This document shows positions 34,682-52,131 of a DNA stretch of 64,000 nucleotides, piece by piece. Source of the stretch: Actinospica robiniae DSM 44927 (lineage in GTDB: Bacteria > Actinomycetota > Actinomycetes > Streptomycetales > Catenulisporaceae); NCBI RefSeq assembly GCF_000504285.1, contig NZ_KI632511.1:6926154-6990153 (forward strand). Reading direction: 5' to 3'. How positions within the stretch are numbered: the first letter of the stretch is position 1; each line of letters opens with the position of its first letter. A program made the position numbers and the translations under genes. The notes under the pieces were generated by a model. The model did not search any database and was not told where the DNA came from. It saw only the letters and a list, made by a program, of their open reading frames with translations.

Positions 34682-35020
34682 CCGCCGTCGCGGCCGCGGC
34701 GCGGCGGGCCGGGAAACAGCCGGCGACGTACGGCCGACGTGCCGTCAGATCCCCCTCCCCGGGCCGCGAAAAGGCGCGCGCGCCCGGGGGGAAACGTAAA
34801 GGGAAGGTAATATCGGGCGTCCGACTACCGCTGTCCGCGGGTCGGGAAGTAGCTTGGTACCCGCGGGCGATACCGCGGTCGGCACCTCTGGGCGGAGTTG
34901 AAAGTCGGGGGGGCACCGGGCGGGGCGGAGGCTCGCAGTATTCTGCGACACGACGGGGCTGCCCTCGACGTGCTGCGCAGTCAACTCCATTCCTACGACG
35001 GGGAAAGGTGGCGTGTTACG
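34682..35020. promoter_or_regulatory. 339-base leader/promoter region of the WXG100 genes
   Basis: No gene is supported. TATTCT at 34939-34944 is a plausible -10 element for the first WXG100 gene, and AGGTGG at about 35005-35010 a ribosome-binding site for its TTG start. A G-rich run (34907-34913) and several palindromic patches near 34840-34885 (CCGCGGGT, ACCGCGGT) are also present. Confidence 0.4.
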
Positions 35021-35332
35021 TTGAGTTCCTCATTCGGAACAACAACCGATGAGATGGCCAAGGCGGCCCAGCAGGTTCAGCAGGTCTCCGAGAGCCTTCA
35101 GCAGCAGATGCGCTCGCTGATGAACAACCTCGAGCCGCTCGCCAGCACCTGGAAGGGCGACGCGTCCGCTGCCTTCCAGCAGCTGATGGAGCGCTTCAAC
35201 GGCGACTCGCAGAAGCTCTCGACGGCGTTGGGCAACATCGCCAACGCGCTGGACTCGAACACCAAGAGCTACAACGCTTCCGAGACGGAGAACACCTCCG
35301 CGATCAGGAACATTCTCGGCGGCCTGACCTGA
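35021..35332 (+). CDS. WXG100/ESAT-6-like secreted protein (first of pair)
   Basis: A 103-residue helical-hairpin protein with STWKGDASAAF, where WKG is the WXG turn, between two amphipathic helices (AQQVQQVSESLQQQMRSLMN and SQKLSTALGNIANALDS). Such proteins form homo- or heterodimers and leave the cell by type VII secretion. No ATG is in frame nearby; TTG at 35021 gives the standard ~100-residue length. The second WXG100 gene lies 84 bases downstream. No EccC or other ESX component is in the window. Confidence 0.9.
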   Translation: MSSSFGTTTDEMAKAAQQVQQVSESLQQQMRSLMNNLEPLASTWKGDASAAFQQLMERFNGDSQKLSTALGNIANALDSNTKSYNASETENTSAIRNILGGLT

Positions 35333-35416: not shown

Positions 35417-35704
35417 ATGGCTCAAATCGCCGTTACATTCGAGGCGTTGGCGAACGCCGAGCAGCAGATCAACCAGTGCGCCAGCCAGCTCACCCAGCAG
35501 CTCGACGAGCTGCGCCAGATGCTCCAGCCGCTGGTGTCCTCCTGGACCGGTCAGGCGATGGAGAACTACCAGGTGCAGCAGCAGGCCTGGACCCAGGCCC
35601 AGCAGGACGCCCTGCAGGTGCTCCAGGGCATCGGCCGCGTGGTCGGCGCCGCGCACGACGCCTACCAGTCCACTGAGAAGTCGAACGCCGCGGCCTGGAA
35701 CTGA
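35417..35704 (+). CDS. WXG100/ESAT-6-like secreted protein (second of pair)
   Basis: A 95-residue protein, MAQIAVTFEALANAEQQINQ at the start, with the turn motif SSWTGQAMENY (WTG) between two helices. It is likely to dimerise with the preceding protein as an EsxA/EsxB-type pair. GAGGGGAG lies at 35401-35408, well spaced for the ATG. Sequence is distinct from the first copy, so this is not a recent duplication. Confidence 0.92.
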   Translation: MAQIAVTFEALANAEQQINQCASQLTQQLDELRQMLQPLVSSWTGQAMENYQVQQQAWTQAQQDALQVLQGIGRVVGAAHDAYQSTEKSNAAAWN

Positions 35705-35834
35705 GTCGCGTCGCACGCACCGCCGCGCCGGTGTGCGGAGGGAGCGGGAGGGGCGAGGAGTCCGTCGTCCGTTCCCGTCATCCGCAAGGCGGCGCGACAC
35801 GAGGGCCCGAGCGGCCCTCTGCTAAGGTCGAGCC

Positions 35835-35909
35835 ATGAGTTCTCGCGCCCGGCGATTTAGCTATGGCCACCGGATCGTTCCGGCCGGCCTGGTCGTCGTC
35901 GAGCGCTGA
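35835..35909 (+). CDS. putative 24-residue leader peptide upstream of chorismate mutase
   Basis: A short frame starting MSSRARRFSYGHR. Its Phe and Tyr codons are TTT and TAT, both rare in this genome, and lie close together (codons 8 and 10). TAAGGT at 35823-35828 just ahead of the ATG would make the transcript almost leaderless. A long GC hairpin with a U-rich end follows the stop by 21 bases and precedes the chorismate mutase gene. The set fits amino-acid attenuation, with Phe/Tyr as the sensed amino acids; this is an inference. Confidence 0.5.
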   Translation: MSSRARRFSYGHRIVPAGLVVVER

Positions 35910-35930
35910 GACACAGCCGACAGACCTTAC

Positions 35931-35972
35931 GGCGCCCCCGGACCGATCCCGGTCCGGGGGCGCCGAGCTTTT
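35931..35972 (+). terminator. intrinsic terminator inside the chorismate mutase leader (attenuator candidate)
   Basis: A perfect 14-bp stem pairs 35931-35944 (starts GGCGCCCCCGGACC) with 35951-35964 around a 6-base loop, followed by GAGCTTTT. It lies after the 24-residue leader frame and 57 bases before the chorismate mutase ATG, so termination here would cut off that gene. It could instead simply end an upstream transcript. Confidence 0.75.
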
Positions 35973-36029
35973 GCGCGCAGCGCCCCTCGCCGCCGGATCC
36001 TCCCGCGCCCGAGACGAGGAGCGAGACCC

Positions 36030-36380
36030 ATGAGCAGCATCTCCGACACCACGCCCCAACCGGCCGCGAAGACACAGGCCGCCGCGCAGACAGTGATCGC
36101 GGCGGAGGCAGAGACAGCGGCGTCGCCCGCGGAGGCCACCCCGCTCGGCGTACGCGGCGGGCGCGAACAGATCGACGCGATCGACGCCGAACTCATCGCG
36201 CTCATCCAGCGCCGGACGGCCGTCTCCGCCGAGATCCAGGCCTCCCGCATCGCCGAAGGCGGCCGGCGCTTCGACCTGCGCCGGGAGACGGACGTCATCA
36301 GCCGCTACACCCGCGCCCTCGGCCGCCCCGGCCGGGACGTCGCCATGGCGCTGCTGGAGCTCGGCCGCGGTCGGCTGTGA
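36030..36380 (+). CDS. chorismate mutase (AroQ type)
   Basis: A 116-residue protein. After a ~45-residue Ala/Thr-rich N-terminus, REQIDAIDAELIALIQRRTAVSAEIQASR is the AroQ helix with the catalytic Arg/Lys positions, and RRETDVISRYTRAL follows. It converts chorismate to prephenate at the branch to Phe and Tyr. The all-helical AroQ core is about 70-80 residues, so this is a stand-alone enzyme. GACGAGGAGCG before the ATG holds the ribosome-binding site. Regulation by the attenuator-like leader would match its pathway. Confidence 0.9.
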   Translation: MSSISDTTPQPAAKTQAAAQTVIAAEAETAASPAEATPLGVRGGREQIDAIDAELIALIQRRTAVSAEIQASRIAEGGRRFDLRRETDVISRYTRALGRPGRDVAMALLELGRGRL

Positions 36381-36787
36381 CGGTCGTGGCGATACCGTCG
36401 GCGCCACCGCCACCGCCACCGCCACCGCCACCGCCACCGCCACCGGCGCGCGGCGCACGGCCGCGTCACCTCCGGTGCGATCGGCGGCTGCAACCTGCTC
36501 CGCCGTGCAACACGTCCCGCGTAACCGGAAGTCCGCTCAGTCGTTGTCCCCCGTGAATGGATCCGGAGCGATCGGCTCGGGTCAGGCGCTTCCGGTCGCC
36601 GGCCCGGCTGTGGGACCTCGCCCCGGCACGCGTCGCGCGGGCGGTCGTTCGCCCGCCACTGCCATTCGGACCTTCACCCCGCCGCCGCTCAGCGCGGGGT
36701 GAAGGCTTTCGTCCCGCGGCCGCCGCGTCCACCCGTGGACAGCGCGGAACGGGGGCAAGCTGCGCGGGGCCGTAGAATCGAATCATC
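36381..36787. other. 407-base gap between chorismate mutase and guaA
   Basis: No gene is supported. It contains a seven-copy hexanucleotide tract (36404-36445) and, at about 36610-36735, two GC-rich inverted patches around GCGGGGTGAAGG. guaA translation starts at 36788 with ATCATC just before, and no strong Shine-Dalgarno, which fits a leaderless or short-leader transcript (TAGAAT at 36775-36780 is a good -10 element). Confidence 0.45.
36404..36445. repeat. (CCACCG)7 hexanucleotide tandem repeat
   Basis: Seven perfect CCACCG units, intergenic, 23 bases after the chorismate mutase stop. Such tracts can change copy number by slippage. No gene is read through it in a biased frame. Confidence 0.9.
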
Positions 36788-51544: not shown

Positions 51545-51550
51545 GCGTGT

Positions 51551-51705
51551 CCTCTTCCCTGGGCGCCTGCCGAGTTAGCTGACGGGTTCGGACGGGAAAG
51601 TTCGCCCTACGCCTTGCCCTGGCCGGCGAGCCGGTGAGGGCTCTTCGGATCAGGCGCGGCGATTCACCCCGATGGGACGGTTGGGTCCCCGGCTCCGAGC
51701 GGCGC
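51551..51705 (-). promoter_or_regulatory. c-di-AMP (ydaO-yuaA) riboswitch
   Basis: On the minus strand the conserved ydaO blocks appear in order: GGGGACCC (51683-51690), GGGGTGAATC (51661-51670), GTAGGGC (51604-51610) and GAACCCGTCAGCTAAC (51574-51589), then GGCAGGCG before the gene. This RNA binds cyclic di-AMP and turns off downstream wall-hydrolase genes. Ends are approximate, and it stops just before the NlpC/P60 start codon at 51544. Confidence 0.85.
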
Positions 51706-52131
51706 CCCGGGCCGCTCGGCCGATCGCTCGGCCGGGGTTCGGGTCGTCGCCGATGGATTCGGCGCGGATGTCCGCCGGGTGTCTGGCGACTCCGCGTGGG
51801 GCGGACATCTGGTGTGGGACTCTAGCGATTCCGGCCGGGCGCCACGCTTTTTCTCATCGGCTCTTTAACTTCCTTTTGCCGCGCGGGCGCGCCAAACCGG
51901 GACATAACGGCAGAGTCGATCGACGGTGAATCGTCGGGTTCTGGCGTCGATAGTCCGGTTTGCCCGGGCGGCAATCGCGGAAAAACGGACAAGTGTCGCA
52001 GGATCCTGCCGTCGAGGCGGCCGGAGAAGATTTTATCGACGTATTGTCGGCAAACCTGAGGGCTCCGATCATGCCGGAGAACCCCGGCGGCGGCCACCGC
52101 TGTCGGTGGACGGGCCTACACTCTTAGAGCG
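51706..52131. other. 426-base gap between NlpC/P60 promoter and pcrA
   Basis: Contains the promoters of the riboswitch-controlled gene (minus strand) and pcrA (plus strand). Sequence around 51845-51990 is AT-richer. The pcrA ATG at 52132 has no strong Shine-Dalgarno close by; TACACT at 52117-52122 is a good -10 element, so leaderless expression is plausible. No gene is supported. Confidence 0.45.

Follow-up and report, generated by a model that had tools for sequence, protein, structure and literature searches.

A conserved short leader with rare phenylalanine and tyrosine codons, very probably an attenuator of chorismate mutase, in Actinospica robiniae and other actinobacteria

Leader-peptide attenuation is a classical principle, and in enterobacteria the pheL and pheM leaders, the latter being the leader gene of the pheST attenuator, contain many Phe codons. 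To our knowledge, these leaders share no sequence with the chorismate mutase leader described here. In Escherichia coli, Phe leaders precede pheA and pheST, and pheA also has chorismate mutase activity (PMC11802643). Attenuation by charged tRNA-Phe, as in pheL-pheA and pheM-pheST, resembles the control proposed below, whereas the leader from Actinospica robiniae has few Phe codons combined with Tyr, uses rare codons and probably starts without an untranslated region. A nearer counterpart is the aroR leader of Corynebacterium glutamicum (Phe-Tyr-Phe), which precedes the DAHP synthase gene aroF and is described as responsive to Phe limitation (PMC4046766; PMC11802643, citing Neshat 2014), with Tyr availability reported to be without effect on aroF (PMC11802643). 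Both are actinobacterial peptides with Phe and Tyr codons and an aromatic pathway gene downstream. In contrast to aroR, the A. robiniae leader encodes a different peptide and is sited ahead of chorismate mutase rather than aroF, and chorismate mutase leaders usually carry a core F-(x)-Y-G with the Tyr codon at the foot of a hairpin, here called 1:2. An earlier note on this DNA, made from the sequence alone, had supposed that attenuation by Phe and Tyr was undescribed in actinobacteria; aroR-aroF contradicts this in part (PMC4046766; PMC11802643).

Streptomyces and Corynebacterium also possess trpL, leuL, ilvL and similar leaders, which like the present one are short, mostly leaderless open reading frames (ORFs) that contain end-product codons, the gene often being preceded by hairpins; in contrast, none is for Phe or Tyr in the parts of PMC1262725 and PMC8079986 covered here. 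The 2005 survey of Actinobacteria, in those parts, reports phenylalanine/tyrosine operons without an observed conserved RNA regulatory structure (PMC1262725), and Table 4 of the S. lividans reannotation holds eight leader peptides, none ahead of chorismate mutase (PMC8079986). Our further literature search covered the main texts of PMC13236596, PMC4833913, PMC2965389, PMC4128351, PMC9094748 and PMC4633059, and found no chorismate mutase leader there. An earlier listing of one may exist; predicted attenuated loci of M. tuberculosis are shown in a figure of PMC13236596. We found no Phe/Tyr switch on chorismate mutase in the literature searched, although the principle itself is old.

The locus lies in a stretch of 64,000 nucleotides from A. 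robiniae DSM 44927, hereafter the window, and its features are collected in Table 1. The near-leaderless ORF of 24 codons described in the earlier note was recovered, as were its TTT and TAT two codons apart, which are codons 8 (35856-35858) and 10 (35862-35864). Both are indeed rare nearby: in four neighbouring genes of the window, TTT accounts for 0 of 34 Phe codons and TAT for 1 of 27 Tyr codons. The position of the TAAGGT hexamer predicts that transcription starts at or near the leader ATG; in S. lividans transcripts, the spacing from -10 box to start averages 6.3 nt (PMC8079986). In 117 of 128 leaders, the start is preceded at 4-10 nt by the end of a [TC]ANNNT hexamer, a pattern picked post hoc after inspecting the leaders; the background is 5%. 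The strict form TANNNT is found in 24 of the 128, and a Shine-Dalgarno-like sequence precedes the start in only four. These hexamers and the scarcity of Shine-Dalgarno-like sequences fit leaderless transcripts of the kind seen in S. lividans.

Table 1. Positions of the leader, its RNA elements and adjoining genes in the window, and leaders at related loci
Feature	Position or loci	Strand	Remarks
Small gene just upstream of leader	34898-35332	+	
WXG100 gene (Pfam) just upstream of leader	35417-35704	+	
-10-like hexamer TAAGGT	35823-35828	+	ends 6 nt 5' of leader ATG
Leader ORF	35835-35909	+	product MSSRARRFSYGHRIVPAGLVVVER; 24 codons, TGA stop; position and F-x-Y motif conserved
Control codons TTT AGC TAT (Phe-Ser-Tyr)	35856-35864	+	read from sequence
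Hairpin 1:2 (predicted)	35865-35889	+	directly 3' of Tyr codon; -16.5 kcal/mol, z -1.95
Segment 2 of predicted antiterminator	35875-35891	+	nascent-RNA fold, ribosome masked at Tyr codon
Segment 3, 5' arm of terminator	35930-35946	+	pairs with segment 2 in predicted antiterminator
Intrinsic-terminator-like hairpin with tail	35930-35975	+	AGCTTTTGCG; stem 35930-35965, perfect 16 bp, -40.0 kcal/mol
Chorismate mutase (AroQ, PRK07857 / Rv0948c type), putative regulated gene	36030-36380	+	family and structure matches
Frameshifted Streptomyces-type leaders	L023, L028, L033, L061, L074, L080		
Class I DAHP synthase leaders	L287-L293		e.g. YWRFIEAP, YFWFSKPA

The predicted folding energy of the leader RNA (35835-35980) is -90 kcal/mol, compared with a mean of -60 (sd 3.88) in dinucleotide shuffles, affording a z of -7.7 that none of 200 shuffles equalled. 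The terminator-like hairpin begins twenty bases past the leader stop and is followed by CUUUUG. The earlier note had placed a 14-bp stem with a U-rich end between the ORF and the chorismate mutase gene; stem and U-rich end stand, but the stem has 16 bp. A generic terminator scan of the window leaves this hairpin unlisted; the scan rule requires five T within eight bases, a count that reaches only four at this site. The gene that follows, preceded by AGGAG at 36017-36021, is the chorismate mutase that the earlier note had named: its product matches Pfam PF01817 (CM_2) and NCBIfam PRK07857 and TIGR01808, and its closest solved structure is Rv0948c, an intracellular chorismate mutase (E 2.7e-15). 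A run of CCACCG repeats lies at about 36402-36444, between chorismate mutase and guaA. Elsewhere in the window, the sole Rfam match at gathering score is a c-di-AMP (ydaO/yuaA) riboswitch on the minus strand (51550-51714, 53.1 bits).

To trace the leader in relatives, we screened 99 genomes of the window's order, A. robiniae included, for chorismate mutase; 96 have it, and the upstream DNA was read for all 107 matches (96 best and eleven second-best). The rule, derived from the window finding itself, was an ORF of 8-45 codons with an ATG or GTG start, within 400 nt upstream, encoding Phe, at most one further residue, then Tyr. Among the best matches of the order, counting the window and setting aside one locus too short to test, 94 of 95 have such an ORF; the lone exception, L107, carries Phe-Thr-Phe-Gly. 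Dinucleotide shuffles contained one in 13 of 950 own-order cases, 10 of 800 for the named loci and 7 of 390 for other families; on the antisense strand, a single own-order locus of 95 had one. All 80 named loci, the best 80 of 364 candidates in a second collection and nearly all Streptomyces, have the ORF, in a set that overlaps the own-order one (same genus, at least three loci with identical upstream DNA). For other families of the class, upstream DNA was read at 40 loci, one in each of 40 of the 50 genomes with a chorismate mutase match at E < 1e-17. The ORF was found in 31 of 39 testable loci (one more too short) and lacking in eight, and a laxer rule (60 codons, TTG starts) gave 33 of 40 loci with a leader and seven without. 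L100, a false match, was taken out of the leader counts by hand. Conservation in other actinobacteria, whose absence the earlier note had regarded as fatal to its reading, is thus seen in all three sets, against 1-2% of shuffles.

Leaders are present in 11 family groups of the sample. The window's own family has RRFSYGHR and RRFFYGYG, Streptomyces leaders read F-x-FTYG, and peptides in other families include RRFFYGYRSAVPV, FYGGRARSPL, FFYALTGVRSGLGC and FYYGTGSPAAV, among others. The peptides vary in sequence and length by family, with Phe-Tyr as their common part. Codon choice is equally distinctive. The leaders use 136 TTT and 108 TTC, and 118 TAT and 37 TAC; in the chorismate mutase genes at these loci, the counts are 2 TTT and 21 TTC, and 2 TAT and 118 TAC. 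Streptomyces leaders have kept the start and stop as well as the Phe/Tyr codons, and TTT, TAT and the GGC that follows are invariant in all 57 aligned Streptomyces-type leaders.

The association with the gene was then examined at other loci of the aromatic pathway. No short F-x-Y ORF precedes any of the eleven second-best (paralogous) chorismate mutases in the same genomes. Across 26 genomes of the order, such an ORF was found at 1 of 28 class II DAHP synthase loci and at 1 of 28 prephenate dehydratase loci; this is chance level, and the idea that either gene carries the same leader in the order was rejected. Chorismate mutase domains of other types, from eight further genomes, yielded one F-x-Y ORF in 12, and that ORF lies across a tRNA-Thr gene. 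Upstream of the second chorismate mutase-like domain of A. robiniae itself (L305, G000:C1:6598879-6599115) there is no Phe/Tyr leader. Given these near-chance frequencies elsewhere, the leader goes with one orthologous group of chorismate mutases. As a separate observation, an ORF encoding CTFRFYRPPG lies about 200 nt upstream of the second prephenate dehydratase of the same genome (L259, G000:C1:4396073-4396603); as the only match among 28 loci, it is perhaps due to chance or perhaps a second Phe/Tyr leader.

Terminator-like hairpins were sought in 35 of the 95 own-order loci, hand-chosen for variety. Of these, 33 have a GC-rich hairpin shortly past the end of the leader ORF; in L004 the automatic pick is a later hairpin, and in L076 the pick is doubtful. 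Energies of all 35 picks range from -25.3 to -43.7 kcal/mol. The U-tracts are short, with at least three T within 10 bases past the hairpin in 23 of the 35 loci. Automatic picks were clearly off the core hairpin in several cases (L004, group f20), and in other families some picks are a later or larger hairpin; we therefore withhold a class-wide terminator count.

Hairpin 1:2 was surveyed in 68 leaders, the same 35 own-order ones and 33 from other families, by folding a 36-nt stretch that starts at the control codon; this anchor was the Tyr codon except in two leaders, where it was TTT. The start of the predicted hairpin falls within 0-3 nt of that codon's first base in 65 of the 68. Against shuffles, the mean z is -1.6 for the 35 own-order and -2.0 for the 33 other-family leaders. 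Pair types in the predicted folds differ by clade at Tyr+5 (C-G 41, G-C 24) and at Tyr+6 include A-U 24, G-C 21, C-G 7 and U-A 6. RNAalifold on 24 Streptomyces-type sequences recovered both hairpin 1:2 and the terminator. Its covariation term was nil (-0.01), with double changes in 4 of 19 pairs, because these sequences are alike. When 26 sequences from across the class were aligned with MAFFT, there were too many gaps, and four pairs resulted, one with seven double changes.

Alternative folds were evaluated on nascent RNA that ended at the terminator loop, once free of ribosome and once with a ribosome masked over an assumed footprint, from 14 nt upstream of the Tyr codon to 10 nt downstream. 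Without a ribosome, the window RNA is predicted to form hairpin 1:2 (0.87) and to sequester the terminator 5' arm at 0.25. With the ribosome at Tyr, sequestration of the arm rises to a mean probability of 0.77 through pairing with segment 2. With the ribosome at the stop codon the arm is likewise sequestered, at 0.79, and the model therefore needs prompt release at the stop. Among 24 hand-picked loci of the 68 leaders, a ribosome at Tyr gives arm sequestration of at least 0.6 in 21, and a gain of 0.3 or greater relative to ribosome-free RNA is seen in 13 (the window and 12 of 23 others); the fold with the ribosome at the stop failed to discriminate. In this GC-rich RNA, the pairing of segment 2 with the terminator arm is overall no more stable than in shuffles (mean z -0.20 for 35 own-order and +0.04 for 33 other leaders); z falls below -2 in two of the former and six of the latter, and is -0.8 in the window. 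The earlier note had proposed folding the leader for an antiterminator, and the outcome is divided: an alternative fold exists in the window (0.25 to 0.77), but relatives back it only in part. Support is thus good for the elements and their tie to Phe and Tyr, and weaker for the exact switch.

The ORF, its conservation and codon choice, the hairpin at the Tyr codon, the terminator-like hairpin and the gene-specific association were all computed directly, and together they favor the earlier note's reading of a Phe/Tyr attenuator. We place at roughly 0.87 the probability that chorismate mutase is controlled by transcription attenuation in which a translating ribosome senses charged tRNA-Phe and tRNA-Tyr. 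The start site, stalling, antitermination and regulation in the cell are inferred to fit together as follows. Transcription would begin at the leader ATG, with a ribosome trailing RNA polymerase closely. When Phe and Tyr are abundant, the ribosome would clear TTT-AGC-TAT and depart, hairpin 1:2 would form, the terminator 5' arm would remain free, and the 16-bp hairpin would end transcription. When charged tRNA-Phe or tRNA-Tyr is short, the ribosome would stall at codons 8-10 and occlude the 5' arm of hairpin 1:2, freeing segment 2 to pair with the terminator 5' arm, so that polymerase could continue into chorismate mutase.

The alternative that comes nearest keeps ribosome stalling at Phe and Tyr codons and dispenses with the 2:3 antiterminator. 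Stalling might then act through Rho access, for which Rho-based leaders are a precedent, through polymerase pausing or at the level of translation. Translation attenuation acts on cysteine genes in M. smegmatis (PMC13236596), and the statistically weak pairing of segment 2 with the arm in relatives, the failure of the ribosome-at-stop state to discriminate and the short U-tracts are all in keeping with such control. The GC-rich hairpin near the leader stop in nearly all own-order loci examined speaks against it, however, as does the alternative fold of the window RNA; furthermore, in the window the hairpin ends about 50 nt before the ribosome site at 36017-36021 and leaves that site uncovered. 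On balance, we consider this alternative unlikely. Far less probable is a functional small peptide acting in trans, with the terminator incidental. The Phe-Thr-Tyr-Gly core is strongly conserved in Streptomyces, which speaks for such a peptide, but in 6 of 78 Streptomyces-type leaders (Table 1) the frame shifts past this core, leaving the RNA nearly unchanged and the C-terminus unrelated, a pattern that we read as selection acting on the upstream codons and on the downstream RNA. Moreover, the wide divergence of the peptides between families, with Phe/Tyr alone in common, and the preference for rare TTT and TAT, which peptide function would not need, run counter to a trans-acting product.

A metabolite-binding riboswitch or other structured RNA overlapped by a chance ORF would account for the strong leader structure (z -7.7), yet no match at gathering score was found in Rfam release 15 for the window leader, nor for any of 15 loci comprising relatives and the window locus. 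The retention of start, Phe/Tyr codons and stop in Streptomyces, and an F-x-Y ORF far more frequent than chance, make this explanation barely credible. A further notion is that the hairpin merely terminates the upstream WXG100 gene pair and that the ORF arose by chance. In 13 loci, relatives of both small upstream genes do stand before chorismate mutase and share its orientation. In contrast, guaA is the upstream neighbor, divergently oriented, in 80 of 147 loci, and the leader is kept in these 80; in four of the 147, the window included, guaA follows chorismate mutase with the same orientation. The leader thus remains with chorismate mutase despite differing neighbors, and the F-x-Y ORF, present in 94 of 95 loci as compared with about 1.4% of shuffles, leaves this last explanation with next to no probability; it is contradicted by the relatives, and we rejected it together with the riboswitch and the trans-acting peptide. 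The leader is real and strongly conserved, and it very probably attenuates chorismate mutase in response to Phe and Tyr.

Chorismate mutase draws chorismate toward Phe and Tyr rather than toward Trp and other products, and in Mycobacterium and Corynebacterium it acts in complex with DAHP synthase. We found no description, in the literature searched, of how actinobacteria set the amount of this enzyme; a switch spanning eleven family groups would explain such control. It would also add to the record a Phe/Tyr element in Actinobacteria that is absent from the covered parts of the 2005 survey (PMC1262725). Removal of the terminator should free the branch point, and the element could therefore aid the engineering of strains for aromatic products.

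Upstream DNA of class I DAHP synthase was read at eight loci from eight genomes of group f6. At seven of the eight, a leader encodes Tyr-Trp-Arg-Phe or Tyr-Phe-Trp-Phe and is followed by a predicted hairpin (Table 1), possibly a sensor of three amino acids on the entry enzyme of the pathway. With three amino acids at the entry enzyme and two at the branch enzyme, the codons thus seem to track end products, a pattern that rests on a small sample (the eight DAHP synthase loci). We lean slightly toward a broader reading, in which these leaders belong to an overlooked aromatic attenuation regulon that would span actinobacterial families, with Phe and Tyr leaders on chorismate mutase and, in groups without these, Tyr, Trp and Phe leaders on DAHP synthase, codons following the end products and control having moved between genes. 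In five of the seven genomes with a DAHP synthase leader, the chorismate mutase leader is absent under the laxer rule. One genome with a DAHP synthase leader (G228) belongs to a group whose tested chorismate mutases are without a leader, and another (G272) has both leaders, one on DAHP synthase and one on chorismate mutase.
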